Position numbers and translations under genes: made by a program. From the IMG/VR virus record IMGVR_UViG_3300001533_002218, positions 1 through 28,220 of that record: DNA of 28,220 nucleotides. The stretch is one strand, 5' to 3'. Below, piece after piece: positions 8,218 to 27,052 of the stretch. Below the pieces are notes generated by a model. The model did not search any database, was not told where the DNA came from, and was given only the letters and a program-made list of their open reading frames with translations. The DNA is from a virus. The first letter of the stretch is position 1. Every line of letters begins with the position of its first letter.

Positions 8218-9285
8218 TCAGTTTTTGCCGGCGAATCGCAGGCCCAGCGCGAAGTTCGCCAGGCGTTCAGGCAGCGCGTTGCGGAGTTGCTTGGCATCGC
8301 GGCCGGAGCGGGTTCGCTGCTGGGACTTGGGCTCGCCGTCCTGGAACTCAACGGGCTCCACGTCGCCCAACCGGTCGCCGATGGCTGCGAGGCGGTCACG
8401 GAGGGACTGGTTTTCCTCGGCCAGTTCGCGGGTGTACTCGGCCCGGGCCTGGTCGAGGCTCAGCCCGCGCGTGAAATACTTCGGCCCGCGTTCGTCGCCA
8501 AACTCGGCGACGAATACGGCGCCTTCGGCGGCTCGCTGGGCGGCGGGATCGGCGGGCGGGTCTGCGGCCGATGCCTCGGACTCGGGCGTCTCGGGCTCCT
8601 CGTCAACGATTTTCGGTTCGGGCGCCGGTTTGTCGGTTTCCGCCTCGGCGGCGGGCGGCGGGTCCTCTGCAGCGCCGCCTGTTTCGGCGTCGGGATCCTC
8701 CGCCGCGTCTTCCGGCGGGGTGAAGCGGGCCAGGTGCGGGTTCGCCGCGCAAAACTCGGTGAGCGTGTGCTTGTCGTAGCCGTGGGGGCAGATAGCCACG
8801 CCGCGGAGGTTCCACTGGCGGAACACCAGCAGCGGGCCGGCCATTTCACGGCCGTTTACGATGGCCGTGGCGTTTCGCTGCACGAACTCGGTGACCAGGC
8901 CGTCCAAGTCGAAGGCAATCGACGCTTCGTAGGGGACGCCGCCCTGGTGGTCGGAGTAGATTTGCTTGGCCCGTTCCGAGGTCAGAAGCAGCTTGCCATC
9001 GGCCCACAGCCCGCCGTCGCGATGCTCGAACGTGTCGAGGTAGCCGAGGATTTGCTCATTGTCGTGCACGTAATCCAAGGCGAGCTTTTCCTTGTGCGTC
9101 TGCATCCCGTCGAGGTCATGGACACACAAGCCCCAATACCAGTGATCGAGCGGCTCCGGGCTGCGCGCGAGGATGTGCACAGCTACGGAGTCGGCCTTGT
9201 CGCCGGCCTTTAGCTCGCACGGCGCGGCGAAACGGCGGGCATGTTCGGGGATGCGGGCGGGATCGAGGTCAATCGTCTTCGGCAT
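8218..9285 (-). CDS. Prohead protease fused to a scaffold-like C-terminal region
   Basis: 355 residues. Residues about 35-170 read as a caudoviral prohead protease: DYVHDNEQILGYLD (His74 as catalytic candidate) and VPYEASIAFDLDG (Ser122 as nucleophile candidate), then WNLRGVAICPHG. Residues about 185-255 form a long Glu/Pro/Ala-rich acidic linker. Residues about 275-310 are a coiled coil (AEYTRELAEENQSLRDRL), followed by a basic C-terminus. A protease followed by acidic coiled-coil sequence is the known design of a self-cleaving protease-scaffold that is removed during capsid maturation. Strong AAGGAG ribosome site 8 bases upstream. It overlaps the portal gene by 17 bases. Confidence 0.75.
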   Translation of the reverse strand: MPKTIDLDPARIPEHARRFAAPCELKAGDKADSVAVHILARSPEPLDHWYWGLCVHDLDGMQTHKEKLALDYVHDNEQILGYLDTFEHRDGGLWADGKLLLTSERAKQIYSDHQGGVPYEASIAFDLDGLVTEFVQRNATAIVNGREMAGPLLVFRQWNLRGVAICPHGYDKHTLTEFCAANPHLARFTPPEDAAEDPDAETGGAAEDPPPAAEAETDKPAPEPKIVDEEPETPESEASAADPPADPAAQRAAEGAVFVAEFGDERGPKYFTRGLSLDQARAEYTRELAEENQSLRDRLAAIGDRLGDVEPVEFQDGEPKSQQRTRSGRDAKQLRNALPERLANFALGLRFAGKN

Positions 9286-10663
9286 GGGGGGGCTCCTTGG
9301 AAGGCGTGTTGGCGGGGATGGGCGGCAAGGCGTTCAGCTTAGTGCGCGCCTCACGCAGCTCATCGAGAATGTCGTCAAAATCGATCTGCCGCTTCTTGCA
9401 GACGCGCTGGGGGCTGTTCAGCCCGGCGTTGATCGCCTCGATATCGGCGTTGACCTCCTGCGCCGGGTTAATCCAGGCCATTCCGTTCGGGATCCATTCC
9501 CAGAGGACGTCGTCGAGGGTCCAGCCTCGCGGCAGCGTGATTTCGCCGTTGAGGACGCCGATCAGCAGTCGCCAATAGGTCAGGCGGTCGAGCAGCTCGC
9601 GGACATCGGCCTGCTTGTCTCGGCAGGCCATTTCATACAGGATGACCGCGCCGCGGGCGCCGCTGAAATTGGTCCGCGATTCATCGAAATAAATCATTGG
9701 GATATCCAACGCCTTGAGGGCGACGGATATCATGAGGCCGGTGTAGTTCTGGAACTCGGCGGCCGGCTGTTTGCTTTCCAGAAATTCAGCCTTGTCGTCT
9801 TGATCGAGATCGAGCTGAAACGGGCCCTTTCCGAAGTCGACCGTGGCGGCGCTCTTGTCCTCGGCGCCGGTCGCGTCGTCAGTTGTGGTTACGTCGCCTA
9901 CCGCCTCGTCGTCGGCGCGGTAGAGGGCCAGCCCGAACAGCTGGGTGATTTTGGCTTTGGCCAGTGCGTAGTCAAAGCACTCGTAGGTGTCGCGCAGCCG
10001 GTTGATCGCCGCGGCGAGCGGTGAGATACCTCGTGTTTGGTCGAATCGGTCGAAGTAGGCGAAGTGTTCGCAGTGTTGGGCGGAGATTTCCCGGTCGAAC
10101 GTGAATCCGTTGCCGGCGGTGCGTTTGTGGACCGCGTAGCCCAAATGTCGGCCGTTCTTGGCGGTGCGGACTCCGTGGGTGTACTCGCCGCGGTTGGGCC
10201 CGAGTGGGTCTCGGATGCGATCGCCCTCGATGGGCGCCACGAGTCCAGACCGCAGTCTCTGCAAGACGATGTCCCCGTCGACCACGCGCCGGGCCTCGGC
10301 AAGGCGCATGGCACGCCGCAGGCTGTGGCGGCCGGAGGCGTCAAAGTGGCCGGGCAGCCCCCATCGCCAGACGAACGTTTCCAGGACCTTATCGAACGCG
10401 GCATCGCCGGTGTGGGCTTCAAAGCTGTGGGAGGCGACGAAGTTCAGATGCAATCGGATCGCCCACGCGGCCACCTCGAAGTTACGCTGGAGGTCTCGCG
10501 TGCTGGAGACGACTTTGCGCCGGCGGTCGGCGGGCAGGGCGGCGTCCTCGGATTGCAAAATCACTCGGCGCGAGCGCCGGCGGTTGCTCGTTTCGGCGGC
10601 GTCGTATGCCCACGCCGCGTCGCGGCGGAGGGCCGATCGTGCTGTGGCGAGGGGGGCGGGCAT
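9269..10663 (-). CDS. Portal protein, lambda gpB-type
   Basis: 464 residues, the usual size of a lambda-family portal. Landmarks include RDLQRNFEVAAWAIRLHLNFV (about 60-80), LAEARRVVDGDIVLQRL, GDRIRDP, ISPLAAAINRLRDTYECFDY and YALAKAKITQLFGLALY, then RTNFSGARGAVILYEMACR and LTYWRLLIGVLNGEI near the C-terminus. These match the order of segments in PF05136. Twelve copies form the ring through which DNA enters the head. The start overlaps the stop of the gpW-like gene as TAATG. Position between terminase/gpW and the prohead protease is canonical. Confidence 0.9.
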   Translation of the reverse strand: MPAPLATARSALRRDAAWAYDAAETSNRRRSRRVILQSEDAALPADRRRKVVSSTRDLQRNFEVAAWAIRLHLNFVASHSFEAHTGDAAFDKVLETFVWRWGLPGHFDASGRHSLRRAMRLAEARRVVDGDIVLQRLRSGLVAPIEGDRIRDPLGPNRGEYTHGVRTAKNGRHLGYAVHKRTAGNGFTFDREISAQHCEHFAYFDRFDQTRGISPLAAAINRLRDTYECFDYALAKAKITQLFGLALYRADDEAVGDVTTTDDATGAEDKSAATVDFGKGPFQLDLDQDDKAEFLESKQPAAEFQNYTGLMISVALKALDIPMIYFDESRTNFSGARGAVILYEMACRDKQADVRELLDRLTYWRLLIGVLNGEITLPRGWTLDDVLWEWIPNGMAWINPAQEVNADIEAINAGLNSPQRVCKKRQIDFDDILDELREARTKLNALPPIPANTPSKEPPHAEDD

Positions 10664-10927: not shown

Positions 10928-11209
10928 TTAATTTTCTGCGGTGGCCAGCACGCCCGTATCGGGCTGGTATTCGTAGGAACGATCGATTCGCACCTGGCCG
11001 CAGGTCGCGCAGCTCGTCCAGCGGCGCACGATTTCGGTGTACGGTTCGCCGCCAGGGGTCCATCCGCTGTGCGGTGTGCGTTTGGTTTGCGTGATGGGCC
11101 CGCGTTCGGTGGACCCACACACCTTGCACCGCGTAGGGGTCGCAGTGACCACGTCGCGAGGTTTTGTCTTGGCCCCCTTGGGGCGGCCGGGCTTCATTTT
11201 GTCGCTCAT
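10928..11209 (-). CDS. Small Cys4 zinc-binding protein
   Basis: 93 residues. The N-terminus is basic with an AT-hook-like GRPKGAKTK (residues 8-16). Cys28-x2-Cys31 and Cys67-x2-Cys70 form a four-cysteine zinc ribbon, with RCKVCGSTERGP and TSCATCGQVRID as the two halves. Such proteins near terminase genes could be DNA-binding packaging or transcription factors, which is inference. The gene overlaps the large terminase gene by 4 bases (ATGA) and ends before a short AT-rich gap. I do not recognise a named family. Confidence 0.7.
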   Translation of the reverse strand: MSDKMKPGRPKGAKTKPRDVVTATPTRCKVCGSTERGPITQTKRTPHSGWTPGGEPYTEIVRRWTSCATCGQVRIDRSYEYQPDTGVLATAEN

Positions 11210-13230
11210 AGATAACGAACCTTTCTCCGTTTGGGCTTAGTGGTGGCGCCGGGAAGTCCGGCCGGCCTCGCGCCTTTGACGGCGGCGGCCACGAAGGCCA
11301 AGATTAGCGCGTCCCCAAAGTGGTTGTCGCGGTTGGGGCGCAGTTGCCATTCATCGAGGGTCCGGCCTCGGGCCGAGACGCGCAGCGGGTATTCCGCCGC
11401 GTAATGGTCGGCCAACAAGCGGAGGTCGCCGGTTGGCAGTTGCAGCGCGCCGGGGTCGCCCGGCGCCGTGCTGAGCGAGCGGGCTACGATCGATTTCCAG
11501 GCGTTGGCGTCGAACTGGATTTGGCGTTTGCTGCGCTTTTCCGGCTTGGCCGAGCGCCAATAGTGGCCGGTCTGGTCGCCTGGGTGGCGCTTGTACTCAG
11601 AAAGCGGTTTATTGATCGCCTTCACGGGCAGGCCCTTGCTCGCGATGACCGCGCCGGGGGCGGTGCATTGGGCGATTGCTAGCTCGACCGCGTCGGGCTT
11701 GTAGCCGCAGTCAGCCAGTATGAGGTCCAACCGGAGTGGCGTGCCGTCGAGGTCCCACGTTTTGTTGAGGAGCGAATTGAATAGGTCGGTCAGTCCGGCG
11801 ACGATCGCCCCCTCCTTGGCGCGCCCGGGGTATTTGCGGGCCAGTGTACGCGTGGCGTCCGAAAGCGTAAAGTAGTCGCGCTTCTGATCGGGCCAGGTGC
11901 CCCAGTCGACCAGGCCGGCGTCGAGCCGGTCATTGCTGGCCAGCACGTGCCAATACAACACCTGGTCATGCACGTCGACGCCGGCGGTGAGCCGGGACAC
12001 GGCCGGCGTCAGAACGGGTACTTCTCTGCGAGCGAAAGCGCCCGCCGGGCGCTCGAGGATGCCCTTGGCGGTTAGCACCTCGGCGCCGTCGGTCGAGTCG
12101 ATCGGGTCGTTTTGGTACTCGGCGGCATGGGCGGCCGGGTTTCGCAGCCGTAGATTCCAGTGCAGTTGGATCGCCGAGTGGCAGCCCTGCTTGTAATCGG
12201 GCCAGGTCACTGCGGATCCGGCGTCCATCTCGGACTGGTGAGCCAGGTAAAAGGCATCGGCGACGGCCCCATCACCACCCGCGGCCAGGTTCTCGGTTCG
12301 CAGCCGAGAGTATTCCGCCCATAGGGATTCGTTGGCGGGCCAGGACAGGACGGCGGGCGTACGCTGACCGTGCCATTCGGGCTTGGCCTTGTGGTCGAGG
12401 TATCGGCTGGCCAGGTCGTCGGGCCGAATCACGGTGCACGGCATGGCCGCGGCGATGGCTTGGCCCGGTCCGGCCAGGTTGAGGATCGCCCCTTCGATCA
12501 CGTCGCAGCGGGCCTGGGTCTGCGCGGGGCTGCGGGCGCTTTCGTCCGTTTGGGGGTCGTCCAAAATCACGAACGACGGCCGAAGTGTGCGGCCGTCTGG
12601 GGTGGTGTGCGCCATGCCGCGGATTTGGCCGGTGATGCCGGCGACGCGCACGGTGGCGCCGGCTGCCCGGGAGCCGGGGATACTCGGGAGCGTGATGCTG
12701 TAGGCAGTCCATTGCAGGGCGGTCGAGCGGCCGCGGTAGAGTTGGCCGTGGGCGCGCTGCGAGATGCCTTGGAGCTTGTAGATTGGATAGCAGATTTCGG
12801 GAAAATCCTCCAACAGTTTCGGGTTGTGTTGGAGGCTGACTTTTATCGAGGTCAATAGCTGCGCCCCGCCATCTTCGTCTGCGCCGATCGCGGCCACGAA
12901 GGGCCGCCGGCCGGTAGCGAGAGCCCACAGGGCGGTGAGCCAAGAGAGCGTGGTTTTCGCGTACCCGCGCGGCATCGCCAGCGCGAACAGCCCGCCGGCG
13001 GACACCGCGCGCGTCAGCCGGTCGATCGCCGCGAAATGGCAGGAGCCAAACGGCAGGAAACAGGTATCGGGGAAATAGAGGCGGGCAAACGCGGCGAGGT
13101 CCCGGACCGCCTCGGCCCGGCGGGCCGGGTCTCGGATGGGCGGGATCGGACCGATGTCCCGCCCTTCGGCCGAGAGACTGCGCTGGCGGGCGGCAGTGGC
13201 GGATTTGTGGGCGTCATAGCGGCGGGGCAT
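11206..13230 (-). CDS. terL: Terminase large subunit, GpA-like
   Basis: 674 residues, close to the length of lambda GpA. The ATPase domain shows a Walker A variant MPRGYAKTT (residues 86-94) and a Walker B VILDDPQTDE (221-230). The nuclease domain shows AGVDVHD (about 435) as the first acidic site, ILADCGYKPD (about 530) and a C-terminal NHFGDALILAF (about 645), as in RNase H-fold terminase nucleases. It packages phage DNA into proheads through the portal and cuts concatemers. The gene overlaps the preceding small-subunit candidate by 17 bases. Its start, MPRRYDAHKSATAARQ, is the natural N-terminus. Confidence 0.92.
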   Translation of the reverse strand: MPRRYDAHKSATAARQRSLSAEGRDIGPIPPIRDPARRAEAVRDLAAFARLYFPDTCFLPFGSCHFAAIDRLTRAVSAGGLFALAMPRGYAKTTLSWLTALWALATGRRPFVAAIGADEDGGAQLLTSIKVSLQHNPKLLEDFPEICYPIYKLQGISQRAHGQLYRGRSTALQWTAYSITLPSIPGSRAAGATVRVAGITGQIRGMAHTTPDGRTLRPSFVILDDPQTDESARSPAQTQARCDVIEGAILNLAGPGQAIAAAMPCTVIRPDDLASRYLDHKAKPEWHGQRTPAVLSWPANESLWAEYSRLRTENLAAGGDGAVADAFYLAHQSEMDAGSAVTWPDYKQGCHSAIQLHWNLRLRNPAAHAAEYQNDPIDSTDGAEVLTAKGILERPAGAFARREVPVLTPAVSRLTAGVDVHDQVLYWHVLASNDRLDAGLVDWGTWPDQKRDYFTLSDATRTLARKYPGRAKEGAIVAGLTDLFNSLLNKTWDLDGTPLRLDLILADCGYKPDAVELAIAQCTAPGAVIASKGLPVKAINKPLSEYKRHPGDQTGHYWRSAKPEKRSKRQIQFDANAWKSIVARSLSTAPGDPGALQLPTGDLRLLADHYAAEYPLRVSARGRTLDEWQLRPNRDNHFGDALILAFVAAAVKGARPAGLPGATTKPKRRKVRYL

Positions 13231-13771
13231 TGCGTGTGTCGATCAGTTCGGCCGCGGCCATGCGGGCGAGTTCGTCGAGGGGCAGGTCTTGAAATGCGGG
13301 ATAGGCCCGTCGCAGGTGAGCGGCGGCCCGGCCCGCGTCGTCTGGCGGGTCGGGATGGGCCGGATCGGCGGCCGCGGCCCCGGCGCCGATCGGCGCGGGG
13401 GCCCCCAGGTCCAGGAGCCGGTTTAATTCGCGTTGCACCCCCAGGGCGGTTTTGCAGTCCTGTATTTGGATCGACCGGCGATACAGGTTATTCAACCGCG
13501 CGATGGCCCGCCCCAGTTCGCGCGTCCGGTCGAATCCGGCGGCCAGGGCCAGGCGACGTTGCGCCTCGGCGATGGCTGCTTCTGCGGCCTTCGCGGTCAG
13601 GCCCATTTTGTCGCTGGTCAGCGCCTTGGTCACTTCGTTGTGGGATTCCAGGGCCAATAGCAGCGCGATTGTCTGGTCGACGATCTCGGCGGCCACCGCG
13701 GCTACTTTGGCGCGCGGCGGCGATGGTTTCCGTTTGGCGGTTTTCTTCTTGGTGGTTTTGTTTGTGGCCAT
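13214..13771 (-). CDS. Putative terminase small subunit
   Basis: 185 residues, assigned from its place directly before the large subunit. The N-terminus is very Lys-rich (KTTKKKTAKRKP, residues 5-16), followed by a long helical region with ALLLALESHNEVTK, AAEAAIAEAQRRLALAAGF and LGRAIARLNNLYRR, compatible with a DNA-binding, oligomerising subunit. A Pro/Ala-rich linker (about 125-145) leads to a short C-terminal helix that could contact the large subunit. No specific motif proves the call. It starts adjacent to the stop of the PLD-phosphoribosyltransferase gene. Confidence 0.55.
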   Translation of the reverse strand: MATNKTTKKKTAKRKPSPPRAKVAAVAAEIVDQTIALLLALESHNEVTKALTSDKMGLTAKAAEAAIAEAQRRLALAAGFDRTRELGRAIARLNNLYRRSIQIQDCKTALGVQRELNRLLDLGAPAPIGAGAAAADPAHPDPPDDAGRAAAHLRRAYPAFQDLPLDELARMAAAELIDTRNAPPL

Positions 13772-14977
13772 TTAGCAGCCGGCGTAAGCGAATCCCCAGG
13801 CGGTAATGCCAGCGGCCCGTAAGGCGGCCAGACTGAGCCGCATTGTGTTTCCGGACGTTACCGCGTCGTCGATGACGATCGCTGCCGGAACGGCCGCGGT
13901 TACGGTATAGTCCGTTTGGTCAAGCGAGGCTTTGGGGTGGTGTCGGGTCTTGGTGTCAGTCCGGTCGAGAAGCTCGGCAAACGGCACGGCGAGCAGTGCG
14001 GCGACGGCCGCGGCCAGTTCCGCGGCGGCGTAGGGAGCCGGCCAACTTGCGCCCTGCGGCGGGCAGGTCACGACGGCGCCGGAGGGGAGCACGGGCTGCC
14101 ATTGGCGGATCAGCGCGGCGAGTTCGGCGGCGAAGCGTGCGAGGTCGATCGAGTCGCGTGCGTCCTTCCACTTGAAAAGGGCCGCCCGGGCGCCGGCGTC
14201 AGAATGGACGCAATAGACGCCCAGGCCGGCCCGGCGCTGGTGTTTGCCGGCGGTGGTGCGTTTTGCCGGCGTGGCCGAGTGGTCTAGGTCGGCTTCGGGC
14301 GGAATCTTTCGCAGCATTTCGGCGAACCAGTCGCGGTAGAACGTCCAGACGGTGCGGTCGTTCGTCCAGTCGTATTGTTCGGCCCGCGGGTTTCCGGTCA
14401 GGTTGGCCGATCCCGTGATGACGTGGTAGTTTTGCCCGTGGTTCAGGAGAAGAATCTTCGCATGGTTGCGGAACGCTCGGTATTGACCGCCCCGGTCGCG
14501 TATGCCGATCAACAGGCGGGCATAGGTAGCGGTTTCGCGCCGCTTGAAGTACAGCCCGGTTAGGAAGTGGACCTGACCGATTTTTCCGCCGTCCCACAAT
14601 TCCAGAAGCTCTGTTACGGTGGTTGCGTTCAGCGTCCAGGTCGAGCAATACAGGCTATCCGTCCGCGGCAGCCAGTTTGTTAGGATCAGCGGAACCCACG
14701 TCCAATAGTCCCACTTCGCCGCCGAGAGGATATGCAGCGTTTCGCCCGGCTCCGGCGGTGTGCGGATCACGTCGGCTAGGGTTTCCCGTTGGGCAAGGCG
14801 GGCGAAGCGGTGTTTGGCCCGGCGGCGCAGGGCTCGGGCGTCGGGCATCCGGTCGGATTCCAAAGCGGTGTCCTCGGGGTTTCCGAGGAGGTCGTCCAGC
14901 AGCCAATCGGGGGCAGAAACGTCGGGAAATGTGTCGGGCATGGGCCGGTAAGTAGGGTGCAGGCCGTCCGGTTTCAT
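13772..14977 (-). CDS. Phospholipase D-like nuclease half fused to ComF-like phosphoribosyltransferase
   Basis: 401 residues with two recognisable parts. Residues about 80-225 are a PLD-superfamily domain: strand YCSTWTLNATT, then HxK at His172/Lys174 (NHAKILLLN), GSANLTGN (189-196) and a Glu at 200. Only one HxK motif is present, so activity would need a dimer, and the usual Asp after HxKx4 is Asn179. Residues about 285-401 resemble a ComF-type phosphoribosyltransferase, with CPPQGASWPAPYAAAELAAA and the PRPP-binding loop IDDAVTSGNT (369-378). It sits between the SNase-like gene and terminase. I know of no described function for this pairing. DNA end-processing, nucleotide salvage or an anti-defence role are possibilities. 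Confidence 0.75.
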   Translation of the reverse strand: MKPDGLHPTYRPMPDTFPDVSAPDWLLDDLLGNPEDTALESDRMPDARALRRRAKHRFARLAQRETLADVIRTPPEPGETLHILSAAKWDYWTWVPLILTNWLPRTDSLYCSTWTLNATTVTELLELWDGGKIGQVHFLTGLYFKRRETATYARLLIGIRDRGGQYRAFRNHAKILLLNHGQNYHVITGSANLTGNPRAEQYDWTNDRTVWTFYRDWFAEMLRKIPPEADLDHSATPAKRTTAGKHQRRAGLGVYCVHSDAGARAALFKWKDARDSIDLARFAAELAALIRQWQPVLPSGAVVTCPPQGASWPAPYAAAELAAAVAALLAVPFAELLDRTDTKTRHHPKASLDQTDYTVTAAVPAAIVIDDAVTSGNTMRLSLAALRAAGITAWGFAYAGC

Positions 14978-15088: not shown

Positions 15089-15454
15089 TCAGTTTTGGGG
15101 CGAATCCCCGGAAACGGGCTCAGCGTGGCCGTGGGCGATGAGCAGGTCGGAGAGGTCGGTTGTACCGCAAAACACGCGGCCGACCAGTAGGGGGCGGCCC
15201 CATCGTGCCAGCAGATCTTGCATTGTCGTTTGTAGGGGGGACCAGACGGTCAACGTCAGGTGCGCGTTCGCCTCCAGCCAGGCTTCCAGCCAGGCCTCGG
15301 CGTCTCGGCCGGCTGGTGTGGCAGGGCTTGGCGACCGCACACCGGCCAGGTCCACCCGCACACGGCGCCCCTCGATCACCAACACGATCTGATCGGCTCG
15401 CGTCAGGTGGGACCACGCGGCGGGCATCGCTAGACCGTGTGGCGGCGCAATCAC
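15089..15454 (-). CDS. Degenerate staphylococcal-nuclease-like (SNase) protein
   Basis: 121 residues from a GTG start that overlaps the stop of the 40-residue peptide (GTGA). The fold pattern is that of SNase: IVLVIEGRRVRVDLAGVRSP, GRDAEAWLEAWLEA, then WGRPLLVGRVFC, and DLSDLLIAHGHAEP, the usual C-terminal helix with a Gly-x-Ala end. The acidic calcium/catalytic positions of active SNase (an Asp in the second strand and a Glu after the PE loop) are not evident. It may therefore be a DNA-binding or inactivated relative. It lies in the cassette between the protease and the PLD-phosphoribosyltransferase gene. Confidence 0.6.
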   Translation of the reverse strand: MIAPPHGLAMPAAWSHLTRADQIVLVIEGRRVRVDLAGVRSPSPATPAGRDAEAWLEAWLEANAHLTLTVWSPLQTTMQDLLARWGRPLLVGRVFCGTTDLSDLLIAHGHAEPVSGDSPQN

Positions 15455-15576: not shown

Positions 15577-16914
15577 CTAGGGGCTCCCGGCGGGTTTGAC
15601 GTCGTCAATCACCTCGTCAACTTCGGTGCGTTCCGGTGCGGTAATGCGGCTGTGGACGTAGCTAAACCCCAGACGGACGGCGGCTGCAACTACGAATTTC
15701 AGCAGCACGGCGAAGATGCCCCTCACGCCGAAGAAGCCGGCCAGCAAAGCCGCAACGCCGCCGGCGGTCCAGGCGGCCATTTCCGGCCCGGTCAGAGACG
15801 CCCCGGCGCCCGACCAATCGCCCTGGACGGCGGCCCCGCCGGCGGCGCCTAGCGAATTTAGCGGCAAGTTGTCCCGAATGGCGTCCTGCCTTTTCGCCTC
15901 CGCTTGTTCCGCGTGCCGTTTTTCGATGCGGTCGAGCGATTCGCCAATTTTTCCAAGCGAATCGGCGATCGGCGTCAGGTCGATCGACAGCGCGTCGAGC
16001 GGATGGTACTGGCGTGACGGCGGGGGGCCCTGCCCCTGTTGCGGTTGCGGTGGAGGCAGGATGCCCAGTCCACCCCCGGGCATCGACGGAAACACGCCGC
16101 CGCCCCCGAAGGCGCCGCTGTTTGGCGGTGGCTGTGTCTGGGGCAGCGGACAGCCCTCCGGCCCGCATTGTTGTCCCTGTTGGAAGCCGTCTTGGTATTG
16201 CCTGCGTTGGACGCCAGGCAGAGGGAGCTGGTAGCGAAACTGTTGGACCGGGCACTGCGGCATTTGGACCACGGCCGTGTGGGCCAGCGTGCGTTGTGTG
16301 GCGGAGCCGTAGACGCGATAGACGTGGCTGACTGGCACGGCCAGGCCGTGGATGGCCGTGCCGTTCGGCCGGTCGAGACGTTGGGCGTTGATCACGCCGA
16401 CGATGCGGCCGGCGGTGTTGAACAGCGCCGAGCCGCTTCGCCCGTTCGCCGGCGGCGGTTGGTAGGCGATGCGGCCGTCGTCGTAGCCGAGTACGTGGCC
16501 CTCGAATCCGGTGGGCCAGTTTCCGCCGGGACAGCCGACGCTTCCGATGGTCTCGCCAGGCCGCAACACGGTCTCGGGCGGTGCGAGCGGGATCACCTCG
16601 GGCAGCACGCCGCCTAGCTCCGACGCGGGCACGCTTAGGACGGCCAGGTCGGTGTCGCTATCGGCCCAGATCGTGGTGCCAGGCACTTTTCGGCTTGCGT
16701 GGCCGTCTTTCCAGAACTCCACGTCGACGGCTCGCCTTGTGGCGACGTGAGCGTTGGTTACCAAGAAGATGCGGCCGGCGGACACTTCAAACACGGTCCC
16801 AGAGCCCATGGCGCCGCCCACGGTCAGGCGGGCGGTGGCAGAATGTTGGGTAGCCGCGGCGGGAGAGCAGAGCGCGAGCAGGATGGGCAGCAGCAGCATC
16901 AGGCGGGGTTTCAT
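15577..16914 (-). CDS. Secreted, membrane-anchored trypsin-like serine protease
   Basis: 445 residues from ATG 16914, chosen because MKPRLMLLLPILLALCSPAAA is a textbook signal peptide, while an upstream ATG would add an unrelated Arg/Pro-rich stretch. A chymotrypsin/DegP-like domain follows, with triad candidates His56 (LVTNAHVATR), Asp89 (DSDTDLAVL) and Ser160 (NGRSGSALF). Residues about 215-300 are Gln/Pro/Gly-rich, then a coiled-coil segment (DSLGKIGESLDRIEKRHAEQ) and a hydrophobic C-terminal anchor (about 380-415). Such a protease in the envelope could act in lysis, virion release, surface remodelling or superinfection exclusion. It is unusual beside packaging genes. A GAGG precedes the start. 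Confidence 0.8.
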   Translation of the reverse strand: MKPRLMLLLPILLALCSPAAATQHSATARLTVGGAMGSGTVFEVSAGRIFLVTNAHVATRRAVDVEFWKDGHASRKVPGTTIWADSDTDLAVLSVPASELGGVLPEVIPLAPPETVLRPGETIGSVGCPGGNWPTGFEGHVLGYDDGRIAYQPPPANGRSGSALFNTAGRIVGVINAQRLDRPNGTAIHGLAVPVSHVYRVYGSATQRTLAHTAVVQMPQCPVQQFRYQLPLPGVQRRQYQDGFQQGQQCGPEGCPLPQTQPPPNSGAFGGGGVFPSMPGGGLGILPPPQPQQGQGPPPSRQYHPLDALSIDLTPIADSLGKIGESLDRIEKRHAEQAEAKRQDAIRDNLPLNSLGAAGGAAVQGDWSGAGASLTGPEMAAWTAGGVAALLAGFFGVRGIFAVLLKFVVAAAVRLGFSYVHSRITAPERTEVDEVIDDVKPAGSP

Positions 16915-17115
16915 GGCGGCGGGCCTCGGAAGAGGGCGGGGCCGGCCGGCCCGCGGGCGCGAAGAGATGCAGGCCGGCCGGCGACTCGGCGGCGTGGACG
17001 ATTCTATTCTGCGCGGCCGCGGCTCAAGAAACAACCCGAAAATACCCCGCTGGCGGTGGGGCGTGGTCTGGAAGGCGGCTAGGCGGGCCGTGGCCGGGCT
17101 TATCGCGGCAAGGTC
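16915..17115. other. Non-coding gap before the protease gene
   Basis: The longest gap in the window, about 200 bases. It contains a locally AT-rich pocket (around 17010-17045) in otherwise GC-rich DNA. On the minus strand a TTGAGC is followed 15 bases later by TAGAAT, a weak promoter-like pair with short spacing. No hairpin-plus-T terminator, RNA gene or repeat was recognised. A promoter for the cassette and late genes could lie here. Confidence 0.35.
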
Positions 17116-17656: not shown

Positions 17657-18604
17657 TCAAATGCAGGGGCCCCAACCGGGCCGGCGGGATCGGGCGGGCG
17701 TCGGTACGCGTGGAGTTTGCGGGGCGGGCGCGTGGCGCGCGGGCGTGTGGCGCGCGGCGTCCAGGGCTTGGGCGATGACACGCACAATGTCGCGCGGGTC
17801 GAAAAGGCTGGCTGCGTGGGTGGCGACGGCCATCCGGTCCAGTCTCGCCGCGCGGTCCCACGCGGCGAGAATGGTGAGGCGGGCAAAGCCGTCGACCAGC
17901 ACGCCGTTGCGGCCGTCGACAATCCACGGCGCCCCTCGCGACACGCCCACGGCCGGGCAGCCGCACAGCAGAATCTCGGCCAGGGCCAGCGGTCCGCGGT
18001 CATTATCGGAGAGGTAGAGCGCCGCGCGGCATTCCCGCGCCGCGTCCAGCAGCTCGGGGCGTTTGTAGTGGCCATAGACCAGCAGCCGGCAGTTGTGGGT
18101 TCCGAAGGCGCGTCCCAGCAGCCCCAATCGTTCCACTAGGCCGGTTTTGGCGAAGATCAGAAGATCGCGCGAACAGGCCGCGGCGTCGGTTTGCGGCGTG
18201 GGCGCCGGGTCGATCGGATAGGGCCACACGACGAGCCGCGTCTTCGACCCGTTTGGCATTTGGCTGGCGATCAGGTCCCGATACCACTCGGATTCGGTGA
18301 ACGACAGCCGGCAGCTCTCGGCGGCGACCAACTGGCGTTCGTGCGAGAACCGGCATGGCCGGCTGGCGTCGTGGAAAAGTATATTGGGGCCGATCACGAA
18401 CGGCCGGCCCTCGCTGGCGCACGCACACGCGGCGGCTGCGTCGAGCCAGCACCAGAACCAGGGCATTTCGTGGCGCTGGAGGGTGCCCCCGATTTTGAGC
18501 CACGGCGGTGCGTAGGCGCGCAGCGCTCGCTGCAGCGCGTATTGGCCGTTGAACGGGCCGGAGCTGGTCGCGGCGTTCACCTCCCGTATCAGTCGGACGA
18601 TCAT
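17657..18604 (-). CDS. Glycosyltransferase, GT4/GT-B type
   Basis: 315 residues. The ATG at 18604 overlaps the upstream stop (ATGA). An earlier ATG two codons away is possible, and the long upstream extension of the frame is a shadow. The C-terminal half has the GT4 nucleotide-sugar site pattern: AALYLSDNDRGPLALAEILL, then GCPAVGVSRGAPWIVDGRNG, where the Glu and the G-x-P-V signature are visible. The N-terminal half includes FVIGPNILFHDASRP and a conserved WPYPID. Last gene of the six-gene glycan block. The acceptor cannot be told from sequence. Confidence 0.75.
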   Translation of the reverse strand: MIVRLIREVNAATSSGPFNGQYALQRALRAYAPPWLKIGGTLQRHEMPWFWCWLDAAAACACASEGRPFVIGPNILFHDASRPCRFSHERQLVAAESCRLSFTESEWYRDLIASQMPNGSKTRLVVWPYPIDPAPTPQTDAAACSRDLLIFAKTGLVERLGLLGRAFGTHNCRLLVYGHYKRPELLDAARECRAALYLSDNDRGPLALAEILLCGCPAVGVSRGAPWIVDGRNGVLVDGFARLTILAAWDRAARLDRMAVATHAASLFDPRDIVRVIAQALDAARHTPARHAPAPQTPRVPTPARSRRPGWGPCI

Positions 18605-19269
18605 GGACATATGGCGTTTGTGGGAAGTGTGGGCAGCCAATCGTCGCCGACGTAATCGGCGGCGATCATGGCGGCGTTGTCGGCGCGGCTGTCGAGCGTG
18701 CTCTGAAACCGGCCGCGATGGTCGACCAGGCTGGGGCGATGGCACCAGGCCTCGAGGCCGGCGGTTTCGGCCGCGGCTCCGAGCACGCGGTCGCCATTCC
18801 AGTCCGGCCGGCGGTCGTGAATATCCAGCATGATCGGCAGCAGTCGCTGGAGTGAGGCCGCGGGAAACAGGACGCATTGCGTCCCCGCGAAGCAATCGTT
18901 GGGGATCAGGCGCCCAAAACATCGCAGGCCGTCCACCGGATGCGCCGCGACCCAGTCACGCGAGCCGCGGCTGCAGAACAGCGTGGCGAAGGCCAGTCCG
19001 TCGCGGTGCGGTGCGAGTGTGTCGAGCAGGGGTTGGAGGTACGGGCCCAGTCCGGCGGGCACGGCGATGTCGTCTTCGCACAGAAGCAGCCAATCGCCAG
19101 TCTTCGGCAACAGAGCGCCGAGAGCGCGCAGATAGGCCGCGGCGTGGCCGGCGCGGCGCTGGTCTCGGTACACGGCTACCATCGGGAAGCCGGCCCACGT
19201 CAGGCTGCGCAGCGTGGCGACGAACAGGTTTTGGCGAGAAAGGTCGGTCAGGATGGCAACGGTCAGCAT
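18601..19269 (-). CDS. Small GT-A-like glycosyltransferase
   Basis: 222 residues from ATG 19269 (the longer frame adds unrelated Arg-rich residues). It begins MLTVAILTDLSRQN, with a Rossmann-like first strand, and has DWLLLCEDDIAVP (59-71), whose EDD is a DxD-type metal/nucleotide-sugar motif as in GT25 and related families. Later segments are FCSRGSRDWV, CFAGTQCVLFPAASL and DWNGDRVLGAAAE. The call as a glycosyltransferase is good; the family is less certain. It overlaps the upstream cytidylyltransferase gene by 7 bases and the downstream GT4 gene by 4, so it is tightly coupled within the glycan block. Confidence 0.65.
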   Translation of the reverse strand: MLTVAILTDLSRQNLFVATLRSLTWAGFPMVAVYRDQRRAGHAAAYLRALGALLPKTGDWLLLCEDDIAVPAGLGPYLQPLLDTLAPHRDGLAFATLFCSRGSRDWVAAHPVDGLRCFGRLIPNDCFAGTQCVLFPAASLQRLLPIMLDIHDRRPDWNGDRVLGAAAETAGLEAWCHRPSLVDHRGRFQSTLDSRADNAAMIAADYVGDDWLPTLPTNAICP

Positions 19270-19931
19270 CTGGTAGCGTCTCGGTGGTTCGCGTAGAGGA
19301 GTTGTGCGGCGAGGAAGTCGTCTATGGTGTCGATGTCGGCTTCCGGCCCGCGCCATTCGTGGAAGCACGGCCGGGCGCCGAACACGTACCGGCAGCGGCG
19401 GGCGGCTTCTCGGTCGACGATTTGCGCCGAGAAGTTGTGGGTCCAGAGCGGCGGCAGCGCCTGGCTGGTCAGGTGCCAGGGCCCGAATCCGTGGTTCACC
19501 GGCCGGCCAAAGCCGTCCAGCACAAAGGCTCTCAGGCGGCGCACGACCAACAGCGAATCATAGGCCGCGTGGTCCAGTTGGTTCCAGTCAGCGACCAGGT
19601 CGGCAAACCCGTTGAAAAATGGATCCGTGACGCTGGTCCACAGCAGTTCATCCTCCCCGGGAATAACGGAGAAAATAGCGTCGATGACCTCATCGAAGGG
19701 CGTGTCATTGTGGGTCAGCCGTTTATCGCGAGCGAGGAAGTGAAACCCGTATTTTTCGGCGATGGATTCCACGGCCGGCGATTCGGACGATACGAACACG
19801 TCGTGCGGAGCAAACACGTCCAGCAATTGTTCGGCCCGGATGTCGAAGAGGCTTTTGTCTCTCCAGAACGGCCGCAGATTCTTGTTTGGGACGCGCTCGG
19901 AGTTCGTTTTGAGCGGGATGACGACTTTCAT
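19263..19931 (-). CDS. CMP-sugar synthetase-like cytidylyltransferase
   Basis: 222 residues. The N-terminus MKVVIPLKTNSERVPNKNL carries the nucleotide-binding signature of the CMP-KDO / CMP-N-acylneuraminate synthetase family (NeuA/KdsB type), with Arg and Lys at the expected places in the loop. Further family-like segments are VFVSSESPAVESIAEKYGF and ELLWTSVTDPFFN. Its product would be a CMP-activated sugar for a neighbouring transferase, most obviously the GT42/DUF115-like protein encoded immediately upstream. ATGA overlap with that gene supports a shared role. The exact sugar is unknown. Confidence 0.8.
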   Translation of the reverse strand: MKVVIPLKTNSERVPNKNLRPFWRDKSLFDIRAEQLLDVFAPHDVFVSSESPAVESIAEKYGFHFLARDKRLTHNDTPFDEVIDAIFSVIPGEDELLWTSVTDPFFNGFADLVADWNQLDHAAYDSLLVVRRLRAFVLDGFGRPVNHGFGPWHLTSQALPPLWTHNFSAQIVDREAARRCRYVFGARPCFHEWRGPEADIDTIDDFLAAQLLYANHRDATRC

Positions 19932-20623
19932 TGGACGGCCGCGGTTACGGTCATGCGTGGAATCGCGGGCGAAAGGTACGATTGGGTCGATGTCCCGGAC
20001 AGCAGTTCCAGCCGGAAGTCAAGCGAGCGGAGCCATTCGTAATAGTCTCCACTCGCGTCGATGGTGGCCGCCGTTTCCCACGAATACAGTTCGATCGGGT
20101 TGGGCGGTTCGATGGCGTGTCGGTAGAAATTCGCCTCCGGCGGCCCCAGGTCCCAGCCGACGACGATCAGCCGGCGGATGCCAAAATGGATGGCCAGCGG
20201 CACAACCATTTCGAACATGATGCCCGGTCCCCATTGCCGGTCGAATTGGGTGTCGATGAGCGACCGTTCCCAGTCTCGCGTGACGACCAGCGATTCTTCC
20301 TTCCGGCCGCAACCTCGCTTCTCGAAGTGGAAGTCCACGCCAGGCAGGGGCGCATGGGCGGCCCAGTTCGACGAAAAGACCATCGTGTTGCGCCCGTACG
20401 TGTAGGGCTGCAAATGGACGGGGTTTAGGATGTGGTAATCGGCCCCTGGATACCGCAAGAGGGCCTGCTTGACGGCGAAGACGACGCGGCCATGGCACAG
20501 CCGGGCCAGGTCGGCCTCGGTCAGGTCGGCCAGGGAGGGCCCCGTGGCGAGGGCGACGGCCGTGGCCCCTTCCCCCTCGTGGCAGTTCCGCAGTTCAAAA
20601 AACAGTTCGGCGGCCGTCATCAT
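19928..20623 (-). CDS. GT42/DUF115-like glycosyltransferase
   Basis: 231 residues from ATG 20623, two bases past the upstream stop; an ATG one codon later is equally possible. Landmarks are VALATGPSLADL (GPS at 28-30) and GPGIMFEMVVPLAIHFG running into RLIVVGWDLG (150-160). This matches the layout of CST-I-type sialyltransferases (GNGPSL, then the SGVYMCAVAIALG-like helix and SGID strand) and the related DUF115/MAF flagellin-glycosylation proteins. Being adjacent to a CMP-sugar synthetase makes a CMP-sugar donor likely. The acceptor is unknown. Confidence 0.6.
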   Translation of the reverse strand: MMTAAELFFELRNCHEGEGATAVALATGPSLADLTEADLARLCHGRVVFAVKQALLRYPGADYHILNPVHLQPYTYGRNTMVFSSNWAAHAPLPGVDFHFEKRGCGRKEESLVVTRDWERSLIDTQFDRQWGPGIMFEMVVPLAIHFGIRRLIVVGWDLGPPEANFYRHAIEPPNPIELYSWETAATIDASGDYYEWLRSLDFRLELLSGTSTQSYLSPAIPRMTVTAAVQ

Positions 20624-20625
20624 GG

Positions 20626-21369
20626 TCAGAACATCCTCGGGTGGACGGTGGGTAAAATCACGGGCGAGGTCAGGTCGATGGCGGCGGGCGGTTTCGCCGC
20701 CCATTTCTTCCCCGCGGTCAAGAGGGTGTCGCAAGGTGGGGCGGCCAGGTGGTCGTAGCCGCGCGGCCCCAGGCCGGACACGTGGCGATCGCCGCTCGAC
20801 GTGCCCCAGCGAAAAACATAGAACGGCCGGAAACCCAGGGCGATCGGGTCCGCCTCGACGGCCAGGATGCGTTCGAATCGAGCGGCCAGGCCCCGGTCCT
20901 CGCCGTTGTTGGCCTCCGGCGGGTAGCCGCCCGCGGCGAGAAACAGGGACCGGCGGTAGGCCCAGCCGCCGTGGAAGAGTCCGCCGGTGGCGTGCTGGCG
21001 GAGCGTACCGTCAGGGTTGGGATGCAGGACGACGGACGGCCGGGACCATGCCGCGTCTTCAAGGGCGGCGGCGCTTGCCCGCAAGGCCCACGGCAGATAA
21101 AGGTCATCGTCGTCCCAGACGGCGATGGCGTCCACGTCGTGGGAGACGAGGGCGGCGGCCGCGTTGCGTTTGCGGGCCAGGGTGGCGAAGCGGGATCGCG
21201 TCGAAACCAGTCGCCAGCCAGGCCCTCGGTGGGCGCCGTATTGGCCCGCGTCATCCAGGATCACCAGTTCTCGTAATTCCCGCGGGTAATCCTGCTGTTC
21301 GAAGCAGTGAATCATTTCGCCCAGTTGTTTCGGGCGCCGGTAGGTACAGCAAACGGCAGCGATTTTCAT
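20626..21369 (-). CDS. Family 2 glycosyltransferase
   Basis: 247 residues, GT-A fold. It starts with MKIAAVCCTYRRPKQL (strand then the TYxRP loop typical of GT2), has ELVILDDAG at 36-42, AVWDDDDLYLPW with the DxD metal site at 86-89, and GGWAYRRSLFLAAGGYP with NNGEDRGLAARFE (about 145-175), the usual acceptor-side helix and ED motif. The enzyme would transfer a sugar from a nucleotide-sugar to an unknown acceptor. The start overlaps the stop of the preceding GT4 gene by 4 bases (ATGA). Confidence 0.85.
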   Translation of the reverse strand: MKIAAVCCTYRRPKQLGEMIHCFEQQDYPRELRELVILDDAGQYGAHRGPGWRLVSTRSRFATLARKRNAAAALVSHDVDAIAVWDDDDLYLPWALRASAAALEDAAWSRPSVVLHPNPDGTLRQHATGGLFHGGWAYRRSLFLAAGGYPPEANNGEDRGLAARFERILAVEADPIALGFRPFYVFRWGTSSGDRHVSGLGPRGYDHLAAPPCDTLLTAGKKWAAKPPAAIDLTSPVILPTVHPRMF

Positions 21370-22496
21370 GAATTTTCAAATTCGGATTCGGATTTGGATT
21401 CGGATAGGTCCTTAAAGAGGGCCAGCCAGCCGGCCCCGATTACCTCGGGGTCGGTCAGTTTGAGCATGGCGAAATGAGCGGCGTTGGCGATGGCGTGGCG
21501 GAGGGCGGAAAAGTGGAGGAGCGCGTCGAGCCGGTCCACGGCGTCCGCGGGCGAGTCGACCAGAAACCCATTGTGCGCGTCCTGAAGCATTTCTTTCCAG
21601 CCCCCTCGGTGGTCGGCGACGATCGGCACGCCGGCGGCCATGGCCTCCAGTCCCACGCGGGGCCAGTTTTCGGCCGGCCCGGCCGGGTCGGTCATCTGGA
21701 CCAAGGCATGCAGGTTCGGGAGCAGTTCGCCGGCGGTCAGGGAGCCAGGCGGGTACACGCGGGCCCATTGCGGCGGCGGGCCGCATTTTCGCTCCGCGTC
21801 GGCGCTCCAACCCAAAACGTGGGCCTCGATCGGATGCCTGCGGTGGAGCATTGCGAACGTTTCCCAGAGGTCGGCGGGGAACTTCTCTTTGTGCGGCCGG
21901 CTGATGCGACCGACGTGGTACGGTTCGCCCGCGCGCGGCGTGGGCGCCGGGTGGTACGGAAACGGGCCGGGAAAGTCGCCCCAGTCGAAGGCGCCGCGGA
22001 TCAGGTGGCGATGGCTAACCGGCACACCGACCGCGTCCAGGTCGGCAGCCAGGGCGTCCATTTGGAACAGGCTCTGGAAGACGTAGCGGTCGAACGGGCC
22101 ATGGTCGAGTGCCGTCCGTCGCTCGGACGGCCACGCGAAGCACATACAGGGCACGTACACCAACCGGCAGTCGAGGGCCCGGAAGTGTTTGACCGCTGCG
22201 ACAAAACGGGTATTGCAGAAGCTCACTACGATTGAGCCGGCCAGGCCTTTTACGCGGCCGAGTAAGCTCGGGTCGGGGCAGCTTTCGATCCGGCAACCGA
22301 TCTTTGCCAGTCGCAGGACCCAGCGGCCGTAATCCGGTTGGTCGGCGCCCCAGGTCGGCACAATCGTCACATTGAGGCCGATCCGCCGCCACAGTTTGAC
22401 CGTATGCCAGATTTCGGTGTTCGCCCCGCCGACGTTGCCGGGAAAGCCGGCCAGGAAAATCCGGGAGTTGGGAGTTGGGAGTTGGGAGCTGGGCAT
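21366..22496 (-). CDS. Glycosyltransferase, GT4 type, with repeat-encoded ends
   Basis: 376 residues, GT-B fold. Residues 13-24 (FLAGFPGNVGGA) are the N-terminal nucleotide-loop region, and ENWPRVGLEAMAAGVPIVADHRG (about 293-315) is the GT4 donor-site signature. Both ends are encoded by simple repeats: residues 2-10 come from the GGGAGTT heptamers at 22463-22490, and the C-terminal SESKSESEFENS comes from ATTCGG hexamers at 21380-21403. First gene of the glycan block. The acceptor is unknown. Confidence 0.85.
   Translation of the reverse strand: MPSSQLPTPNSRIFLAGFPGNVGGANTEIWHTVKLWRRIGLNVTIVPTWGADQPDYGRWVLRLAKIGCRIESCPDPSLLGRVKGLAGSIVVSFCNTRFVAAVKHFRALDCRLVYVPCMCFAWPSERRTALDHGPFDRYVFQSLFQMDALAADLDAVGVPVSHRHLIRGAFDWGDFPGPFPYHPAPTPRAGEPYHVGRISRPHKEKFPADLWETFAMLHRRHPIEAHVLGWSADAERKCGPPPQWARVYPPGSLTAGELLPNLHALVQMTDPAGPAENWPRVGLEAMAAGVPIVADHRGGWKEMLQDAHNGFLVDSPADAVDRLDALLHFSALRHAIANAAHFAMLKLTDPEVIGAGWLALFKDLSESKSESEFENS
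21380..21403. repeat. ATTCGG hexamer array encoding a protein C-terminus
   Basis: Four hexamer units (ATTCGG, ATTCGG, ATTTGG, ATTCGG) in the last codons of the glycosyltransferase gene. Translated on the minus strand they give the Ser/Glu/Lys tail. The next gene starts 11 bases away. Confidence 0.85.
22463..22490. repeat. GGGAGTT heptamer array at a gene start
   Basis: Three GGGAGTT units plus one GGGAGCT, ending 3 bases short of the start codon at 22494-22496. They encode residues 3-11 of the glycosyltransferase, so the array has been absorbed into, or has created, the N-terminus. Confidence 0.9.
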
Positions 22497-22498
22497 AG

Positions 22499-22519
22499 GG
22501 GTCAGGTCTCAGGTGTCAA
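22499..22519. repeat. Degenerate GTGTCAG heptamer array at a stop codon
   Basis: Units GGGTCAG, GTCTCAG and GTGTCAA. The stop codon of the HD phosphohydrolase gene (22509-22511) lies within it, and the last three sense codons (Val-Asp-Thr) are repeat-derived. The array lies between that gene and the glycosyltransferase start. Confidence 0.8.
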
Positions 22520-23156
22520 CGGTTCCTAGCAGGTTAAGAGCAAACGCGACGAACGTATCGCGGATTTCGGTTTCGGTCGGTAGGGGCGTGTTGTCGCAGG
22601 TCCGCAGGCCAAACGGGTCCATTGCAGCGGCCAGTTTCTCGCGTTGGGCTACAGTACACTCGCCAAAGAAAAACGTGGCTTCGCGGATACATGCTTCGGT
22701 GTCGAGGCGGTCGACAATGAGCCGGGCGTACCGCTGCACGACGCCGCCTTCGTAGGTGTCGGGCGGCGGTGTGTCGGCCCACAAGTTGTAGCGGGCTGCG
22801 ATGACCCGGAACGCAGCCGCCTCCACCTCATGGTAGCGGGCTTCGGGAACTTTTTTGCGGTTTTCGTTTTCCCATACCAGCCGGGTTTTGAGCGGGCTGG
22901 GAATGTCGCCCAGCCAGGCTTCCGGGGCGTCGTGAAAGAGGGCAATCCGTTGCACCACTGCCGGTTGGCCTTCGGTTTTTGCGGCCTCGGCCACGGCCAT
23001 GCAGTGTTCCGCCACGGTGTAGGGGGTTGTTGCGGCGAACCGGTAGCGGCGGGCCAGACGGATCGCGATTTCCTCCAGCTCGCAGTCTTCGGCGCGGAGC
23101 TGCCACGGGTGCATAAGTTCGCCGTCGCAGCGGTAGAGGTGTCGGTCGAGTTGCAT
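22509..23156 (-). CDS. HD-domain phosphohydrolase (YfbR-like nucleotidase)
   Basis: 215 residues. The HD metal site is clear: His51 (AEHCMAVAE), His75-Asp76 (LFHDAPEAWLGDIPSPLK) and a third metal Asp at about 149 (LIVDRLDTEA). The PEAWLGDIPSPLK segment is typical of phage and YfbR-type nucleotidases acting on deoxynucleotides. It may trim the dNTP pool during replication. It precedes the glycan genes and follows a small hypothetical gene by one base. A DatZ-type dATPase of base-Z phages is a related alternative, but no PurZ partner is present in the window. Confidence 0.8.
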   Translation of the reverse strand: MQLDRHLYRCDGELMHPWQLRAEDCELEEIAIRLARRYRFAATTPYTVAEHCMAVAEAAKTEGQPAVVQRIALFHDAPEAWLGDIPSPLKTRLVWENENRKKVPEARYHEVEAAAFRVIAARYNLWADTPPPDTYEGGVVQRYARLIVDRLDTEACIREATFFFGECTVAQREKLAAAMDPFGLRTCDNTPLPTETEIRDTFVAFALNLLGTVDT

Positions 23157-23157
23157 G

Positions 23158-23307
23158 TCAGCAGCTTTCCCCGCGGCGGGCGCGGCCGCGGTAGTAAGGG
23201 GTCAGCCGGCCGCCCTCGTTCAGCACCCGAAGCACCCAGGCGGGTGAACGATGCACTCGTCGTAGCAGTTCCACCCGTGCAATGTGCGCGTTGTCGGCCA
23301 TGGTCAT
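23158..23307 (-). CDS. Small basic hypothetical protein
   Basis: 49 residues from ATG 23307, which overlaps the SEC-C gene stop (ATGA); the longer frame upstream is a shadow of that gene. The sequence, starting [20 protein letters not shown], has a possible helix-turn-helix (residues 7-30: [20 protein letters not shown]) that resembles a short DNA-binding motif and a basic, Arg-rich end. Position in the early operon is compatible with a small regulator. I do not recognise a family. Confidence 0.55.
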
Positions 23308-23519
23308 TCGGCGAATCGTGTGTCCAAAGGGTTTCCTAAACAGCACTTTTTGAACTTTTTCCCGCTACCACACGGGCAGGGGTCGTTCCGGCTGATCCGT
23401 TTGCGGATCGTTTGCTTGGGCGTTGGGGGAAGGACCATCGGCCGGTAGGCCGTTTGCAGGGCCGCCGGCAGCTTCTGGATTTCGGAAAACGGGCGAAACG
23501 TTCCATCGTTGATGTTCAT
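23304..23519 (-). CDS. SEC-C zinc-motif protein
   Basis: 71 residues. Residues 44-60 ([17 protein letters not shown]) are a complete SEC-C motif, with Cys48, Cys50, Cys59 and Cys60 as the zinc ligands, the same motif as at the C-terminus of SecA. The N-terminal 40 residues are a Pro-rich, otherwise unremarkable extension. Stand-alone SEC-C proteins bind zinc and often mediate protein contacts; what this one contacts is unknown. It overlaps both neighbours by 4 bases. Confidence 0.85.
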
Positions 23520-25307: not shown

Positions 25308-25528
25308 AGCGGCTCGATCTCCCTCCAGCCCATGGCGGCGGCTCGCGCGTCCAGGTCGGCCTGGGCTTCTTCCCGCGTGTCGCGCAGGGGCAGGTGTTTT
25401 GAGGTCAGCCGTTTCGACCCGCCCGAAGGTTTTCGATAGCATGTCATCCACACTTGCCCCCCGCTAATCCCGTCCGAAACCATCAGCATCCGGCCATGGT
25501 CGTCAATGTAGGCTTTGGGGTTATTCAT
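25304..25528 (-). CDS. Small hypothetical protein
   Basis: 74 residues from ATG 25528, which overlaps the methyltransferase stop (ATGA); the longer frame upstream is a shadow of that gene. The first part (MNNPKAYIDDHGRMLMVSD, then GQVWMTCYRKPSG) reads as a small beta-sheet domain, the end (TREEAQADLDARAAAMGW) as a helix. The alpha/beta pattern with a DARAAAMGWREI end suggests a small folded protein. The family is unknown. Coupled on both sides by ATGA overlaps. Confidence 0.6.
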   Translation of the reverse strand: MNNPKAYIDDHGRMLMVSDGISGGQVWMTCYRKPSGGSKRLTSKHLPLRDTREEAQADLDARAAAMGWREIEPL

Positions 25529-26871: not shown

Positions 26872-27052
26872 CGGTTACCTCTTCCGTCTTGCCGCGGTCG
26901 ACCAGCTCGCCGCGTAGGATGGGAATGTCGCGCCGGGCGCTAAACCCCAGACGGACGGTGTCGCCGCAAATGTCGACGACGCACACTTCGATCTTGTCCG
27001 GCCCGTCGTCGATCAGGATTCGTTCGTTTTGCTTCCTTGACAGCAGCAGCAT
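26864..27052 (-). CDS. csrA: CsrA/RsmA RNA-binding translational regulator
   Basis: 62 residues, almost exactly the usual CsrA length. MLLLSRKQNERILI matches the N-terminal strand with the RNA-contact residues Leu4 and Arg6, and GDTVRLGFSARRDIPILRGEL matches the core, with the conserved Arg in the VxR-type turn before GEL (equivalent to R44). CsrA dimers bind GGA motifs in mRNA leaders and block or stimulate translation. It is coupled to the methyltransferase gene. A CsrA-site-like motif overlaps its own ribosome site, suggesting autoregulation. Confidence 0.92.
   Translation of the reverse strand: MLLLSRKQNERILIDDGPDKIEVCVVDICGDTVRLGFSARRDIPILRGELVDRGKTEEVTDG

Follow-up and report, generated by a model that had tools for sequence, protein, structure and literature searches.

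A predicted NucT-like nuclease fused to a ComF-like phosphoribosyltransferase domain beside the terminase genes of a phage

Introduction

What use could a phage have for a polypeptide that joins a single-motif phospholipase D (PLD)-type nuclease to a phosphoribosyltransferase (PRTase) and is encoded next to its terminase genes? The question is raised by a 28,220-nucleotide stretch of viral DNA (the window, positions 1 to 28,220 of the IMG/VR record IMGVR_UViG_3300001533_002218), in which an earlier note, made from the sequence alone, had described such a protein and suggested end processing, nucleotide salvage or interference with host defense as its function. Both domain types are already known, and their fusion is apparently undescribed: searches of the open-licence literature on ‘NucT-like nuclease’ in phages, and on PLD, PRTase and RecQ combined, returned nothing relevant.

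Results

An intact gene encoding two separately predicted domains

The gene is an intact open reading frame on the minus strand (ATG at 14977, stop at 13772-13774), the plus-strand reading being closed. The AlphaFold model of the full protein consists of two confident domains joined by a disordered linker.

13772-14977, minus strand: fusion gene, NucT-like PLD nuclease plus ComF-like PRTase, intact ORF of 401 amino acids
14312-14845, minus strand: PLD nuclease domain, residues 45-222, mostly pLDDT >90 (PHROG 20533/16945; Foldseek match to Nuc, 1byr)
14255-14302, minus strand: linker, residues 226-241, pLDDT <50
13775-14245, minus strand: ComF-like PRTase domain, residues 245-401, without the zinc ribbon (PF00156; Foldseek match to 7p0h; hhalign)

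The overall pTM is low (0.53), so that the relative placement of the two domains is not predicted; the C-terminal half modeled alone yields a confident separate fold (pLDDT 87.5, pTM 0.86). The two-domain reading of the earlier note is borne out by these predicted folds and by profile searches, which assign the N-terminal half to PHROGs 20533 and 16945 and the C-terminal half to PF00156. Every residue number given there was correct (His172, Lys174, GSAN 189-192, Asn179 and IDDAVTSGNT 369-378).

The nuclease half

Judged by its sequence, the N-terminal half is a member of a widespread, usually stand-alone phage nuclease family. It matches PHROG 20533 (E=2e-13) and PHROG 16945, annotated ‘endonuclease’ (E=4e-10), and, in a Pfam search with the whole protein, only PLDc_2, weakly; Foldseek matched the N-terminal domain to Salmonella Nuc (1byr, E=1e-5) as well as to the SauUSI and BfiI nucleases. 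Both the PLD fold and the HxK/GSxN catalytic motif of the Nuc/NucT nucleases are present, and H172, K174, S190, N192, N196, P197 and E200 are invariant across 58 aligned homologs of this half.

14456-14464, minus strand: HxK motif (H172, K174), invariant in the 58 homologs
14402-14413, minus strand: GSAN, residues 189-192, with S190 and N192 invariant in the 58 homologs
14378-14392, minus strand: N196-P197-x-x-E200 family motif with an invariant Glu, likewise in the 58 homologs

We presume that E200 may be the equivalent of the active-site Glu of Salmonella Nuc. The earlier note had remarked that the HxK motif lacks its trailing Asp, and indeed Asn179 takes the place of the Asp of HxK(x)4D; this is not, however, an oddity of the window protein, given that only 4 of the 58 homologs have Asp at position 179. 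For the same reason, the phage family as a whole departs from strict NucT. The notion that a degenerate HxK marks an inactive nuclease was rejected because the absence of the Asp is common to the whole family.

Annotations of the stand-alone relatives, of about 200-240 residues, read ‘NucT-like nuclease’ or ‘endonuclease’ in phages of Gordonia, Arthrobacter and Bacteroides and ‘hypothetical’ in those of Flavobacterium. A NucT relative was also observed in a Methanoregulaceae archaeon MAG (L168, 5466-6233), possibly in a provirus or a contaminant contig.

The terminase neighborhood

Immediately downstream of the fusion gene lie two terminase genes.

13214-13771, minus strand: probable small terminase subunit (TerS), its ATG directly abutting the fusion stop (TAAATG)
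11206-13230, minus strand: large terminase subunit (TerL) with a GpA-type nuclease domain (PF20454, E=6e-12; PHROG 38, E=8e-32)

The TerS label follows from the position next to TerL, the PHROG search having produced no significant match. Throughout loci L147-L160, the nuclease gene, fused or not, is always followed directly by a homolog of the window TerS and, where the contig permits, by homologs of TerL, portal, protease and capsid genes. Most of the genome-contig relatives in this clade have the same order, with no TerS match in L168 and L172. Among the more distant members, terminase genes of another type come next, namely, both TerS and TerL in L077 and L128, TerS in L091 and L112, and TerL in L086, the TerL beside the nuclease gene belonging to PHROG 9 in L077, L128 and L086; in L047 and L034, the gene that follows belongs to a family without an assigned function. 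The nuclease gene also adjoins terminase genes in Arthrobacter and Gordonia phages, and its adjacency to the terminase is thus a feature of diverse phages. For the remaining fusions, the distance from the stop to the following start codon is between about -11 and +31 bases.

The position directly ahead of the terminase, on which the earlier note had built its functional suggestions, is therefore real, but it is not specific to the fusion because stand-alone nucleases occupy the same slot: the terminase link belongs to the nuclease half rather than to the fusion. Sequence, predicted fold and gene order jointly identify a terminase-linked NucT-like PLD endonuclease. The gene order itself is evidence of an association with the terminase, not of the candidate role in packaging.

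The closest relative and the likely host

The closest relative of the window, L161, comes from a Phycisphaerae MAG; it has 77% identity and shares the gene order but lacks the PRTase, and the DNA similarity between the two stops where the nuclease domain ends and picks up again in TerS. Other close relatives were found in Planctomycetales and Thermoguttaceae MAGs, which makes a planctomycete the likely host of the window virus. Between its TerS and TerL homologs, L161 contains a DNA-methyltransferase-like ORF (approximately 9180-9920, TDPPYSSGG) that is absent from the window, and a trypsin-like protease is encoded upstream of the nuclease both in L161 and in the window (15580-17034, minus strand; PF13365, E=1e-15).

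The remainder of the window encodes, on the minus strand, a glycan-type gene cluster (17660-22496) that could decorate the virion or the host surface, with a group 1 glycosyltransferase (21369-22496, E=3e-11), a second, weak match at 17660-18922, a GT2 glycosyltransferase (20629-21369, E=1e-5), a cytidylyltransferase (19266-19931, E=9e-9) and a weakly matching MptE-like protein (19931-20734). On the same strand, there are genes for a CsrA homolog (26867-27052; PF02599, E=4e-17), also matched in L147 (608-907), a C-5 cytosine DNA methylase (25528-26871; PF00145, E=3e-45), an HD-domain protein near YfbR-like 5'-deoxynucleotidases (22512-23156; PF12917, E=2e-5, just under the cut-off), a SEC-C motif mini-protein (23307-23519; PF02810, E=6e-11) and a small protein (15092-15454) that by eye looks like a staphylococcal-type nuclease, Pfam giving no support.

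The ComF-like PRTase half

PF00156 was detected in the window protein at E=4e-4 over the full length and at E=5e-5 with the C-terminal half alone, and is matched by the C-terminal halves of all five fused homologs. The recognizable elements of this half are as follows.

14039-14062, minus strand: PPQGASWP, residues 306-313, likely the pyrophosphate-loop region; PPQG shared without exception by the five fusions whose PRPP loop is intact
13916-13963, minus strand: flexible-loop region, R339-Q354 (RxDxKxxHxxxASLxQ), largely kept in four fusions and deleted in L139
13844-13873, minus strand: PRPP loop, IDDAVTSGNT, residues 369-378; D370, D371, S375, G376 and T378 invariant in the five fusions

The first sequence searches with the C-terminal half alone, against viral contigs, phage records and the PDB, produced no lead, and its scan of genome contigs found no relative. 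Foldseek comparison of the predicted fold with the whole PDB placed Helicobacter pylori ComF first (7p0h, E=8e-5; runner-up, 2.5e-3). A profile of the fusions was run over 392 genomes from the phylum of the Phycisphaerae MAG, and 15 C-half loci (L187-L201) were read: 14 have the ComF layout, a Cys-rich ribbon followed by a PRTase, and the remaining one, L190, is cut by the contig end. All five planctomycete ComF proteins compared with TIGR00201 match it, with E-values between 2e-8 and 2e-18, without reaching the curated cut-off. The fused C-terminal halves align with eight planctomycete ComF proteins in hhalign at E=2e-15, with 31% identity over 95 columns, whereas the N-half control reached a probability of 0.2%. 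Fold, profile alignment and the PRPP loop (DDxxTxGxT of ComF, here IDDAVTSGNT) agree on a type I PRTase of ComF kind, in line with the ComF-like label proposed earlier. The assignment is a distant one: TIGR00201 matched neither the window C-half nor those of four fusions at E<=1, and the CxxC pair or N-terminal Cys zinc finger found in the cellular ComF proteins that we read is absent from the fused C-halves. We therefore call the phage domains ComF-like rather than ComF. PyrR, the nearest PRTase in a PDB sequence-profile search (E ~1e-3), was set aside because the fold, host-genome and profile-profile comparisons favor ComF.

Recurrence and exchange of the C-terminal module

The earlier note had called for a survey of other phages, allowing that the fusion might be confined to this record and due to a sequencing error that joined two genes. 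Four distinct IMG/VR contigs, L069, L085, L139 and L158, encode intact fusions with an intact PRPP loop, and PF00156 was found independently in four of the fusion-bearing records, in one of them above the curated cut-off. Because intact fusions recur in independent contigs, we reject an artifact. L108 has the same kind of N-terminal half with a decayed C-terminal extension from which the PRPP loop is lost, and L081, almost a copy of it, is truncated by the end of its contig. Fusions are nevertheless the minority among the well over 100 contigs surveyed, most of which have no C-terminal extension; another pattern scan, of the window's clade, revealed no new PRTase fusion, and the whole-protein IMG/VR scan and the plasmid tblastn search gave no lead.

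On the tree built from 60 nuclease domains, the fusions occupy scattered positions: at least 5 changes are required, 3 of them imposed by well-supported branches, and the window forms a pair with L161, which is unfused. The identities of the two halves conflict, L085 and L158 sharing 42% in the N-half and 66% in the C-half, as against 62% and 36%, respectively, for L069 and L139. The tree counts alone cannot separate gain from loss, and it is this conflict that points to transfer of the C-terminal module. The tree and the identities combined mark the PRTase as an optional, apparently swappable C-terminal module that moved between phages within a fixed slot, the domain having been, by this evidence, gained or transferred more than once. 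In L016 (1501-2610) and L203 (2698-3720), the same type of nuclease is fused to a P-loop domain (AAA_33-like, GLPGSGKST, sub-threshold), a second alternative C-terminal module, which in L016 lies just upstream of the terminase.

When the window, L069, L085 and L158 are compared pairwise, the C-terminal half has a pN well under its pS (0.24 against 0.56 in the L085-L158 pair, for example), whereas the two are about equal for L108; with dS nearly saturated, the difference can be read only as a rough indication of purifying selection. Retention of the module is uneven, L139 having lost its flexible loop and L108 its PRPP loop. These patterns bear on the rather doubtful alternative that the PRTase half is a passenger, kept for dimerization, stability or expression coupling and devoid of a ligand-dependent role, such that the nuclease alone matters. 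A passenger would sit well with stand-alone nucleases being the rule and fusions few, with the sister L161 having no PRTase domain, and with the losses in L139 and L108, but not with the invariance of the PRPP-loop residues in five fusions, the depressed pN in four, or the repeated gain or transfer.

Discussion

The explanation that we favor, tentatively and with somewhat less than even confidence, is that the protein is a packaging-linked ssDNA-type endonuclease carrying an optional nucleotide- or ssDNA-binding module, probably derived from ComF. Like other single-motif PLD nucleases, the enzyme would probably be dimeric; NucT of H. pylori is an endonuclease that prefers ssDNA and forms a dimer in the crystal (PMC5714352). 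It would trim or nick ssDNA gaps, flaps or branches of phage DNA that has been replicated and is being packaged by the terminase. A nuclease can act as a packaging helper, as illustrated by the HNH protein gp74 of HK97, which promotes cos cleavage (PMC9410871). Fold and profile comparison suggest that the PRTase came from a cellular ComF, most likely that of a planctomycete host, with subsequent loss of the zinc ribbon; the donor and the direction of gain or loss are a candidate reading, not a proven one. ComFC binds PRPP, nucleotides and ssDNA, its physiological ligand not being known (PMC9005727), and the phage domain would most likely bind PRPP or nucleotides and/or ssDNA, tuning or targeting the nuclease rather than making nucleotides. 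Against this explanation stands the sister phage L161, which does without the PRTase domain.

A more specific version, which we consider quite improbable, would make the ComF-like domain a functional enzyme or a sensor of PRPP, acting on DNA ends at the packaging motor or gating their cutting. For phage PRTases, the synthesis or sensing of a nucleotide upon DNA entry has been proposed, and their role has been called enigmatic (PMC5512222). If this version is true, it would link the nucleotide state of the cell to genome packaging and hint at the use of PRPP by ComF itself in DNA uptake.

The relationship of the PRTase to defense proteins raises the unlikely alternative that it mimics or antagonizes PRTase effectors, such as the RecQ-PRTase PsyrT and ShosT, or that the protein functions in defense itself, with the nuclease as the effector. 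The C-terminal half matches the PRTase region of PsyrT (L069, E=7e-7) and resembles ShosT in fold (8zvc, 8zvd); ShosTA consists of a PRTase toxin and a DprA-like antitoxin (PMC11878078), and phage PRTase domains have been linked to conflict (PMC5512222). Yet the gene belongs to a packaging operon in which TerS comes directly after it, a DprA-like partner was not noticed, and ComF ranks well above ShosT in the fold comparison. The full-length alignment with ShosT might suggest a shared two-domain layout; because the C-half alone aligns to ShosT too, we claim no likeness of the N-half.

Very unlikely, in our estimate, is nucleotide salvage, whereby the nuclease would degrade host DNA and the PRTase rebuild nucleotides from bases and PRPP, despite the PRPP-loop motif, the YfbR-like HD protein elsewhere in the window and the implication of H. 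pylori NucT in purine salvage (PMC5714352). Nucleases release nucleotides or oligonucleotides rather than free bases, L139 has no flexible loop, the gene lies among packaging genes, and the best relatives, ComF proteins, are not known as salvage enzymes. Sequence cannot settle the choice between end processing, salvage and counter-defense, but the context is most compatible with end or branch processing during packaging and least with salvage.

The ligand and role of the ComF PRTase are still open questions (PMC9005727), and in this phage a ComF-like domain and an ssDNA-type nuclease are parts of one polypeptide, encoded in a fixed slot beside the packaging genes. The window and L161 form a natural matched pair with and without the PRTase, in which an effect of PRPP or nucleotides on cutting would be simple to test. 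The NucT-like family is widespread and, judging from the literature searched, apparently unstudied, and it is a candidate component of the packaging machinery.

Comparison with known systems

The phage NucT-like proteins of PHROGs 20533 and 16945 (Gordonia BetterKatz, Arthrobacter RedFox, Flavobacterium 6H and Bacteroides BT-TP2) share with the fusion the PLD domain, the motif, the size of the N-half and a location near terminase or portal genes, but are stand-alone, without the PRTase. The single HxK...GSxN PLD nuclease fold is also common to H. pylori NucT and Salmonella Nuc, from which the fusion differs by the missing HxK(x)4D Asp, the added PRTase and the phage packaging context. ComF/ComFC (7p0h, TIGR00201) is the best fold match of the C-half and has, like it, the PRPP loop and a conserved Arg that starts the flexible loop, whereas the C-half lacks the zinc finger and the TIGR00201 match, is placed behind a nuclease and is phage-borne. 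The PRTase domains of PsyrT/RqlH and ShosT are related to the C-half as well; however, PsyrT and RqlH contain a RecQ-type helicase where the fusion has a PLD domain, the PADLOC match being limited to the PRTase part, and the DprA-like partner of the ShosT system has no counterpart found for the fusion. The PRTase-containing phage polyvalent proteins, as here, include a ComFC-related PRTase in a multidomain phage protein, although those described are mainly MuF-type fusions, with no mention of a NucT fusion in the section consulted (PMC5512222). Finally, although the HNH packaging endonuclease gp74 of HK97 has an unrelated fold, and a packaging role of the NucT family is a candidate only, gp74 is likewise encoded by a nuclease gene in the packaging region.
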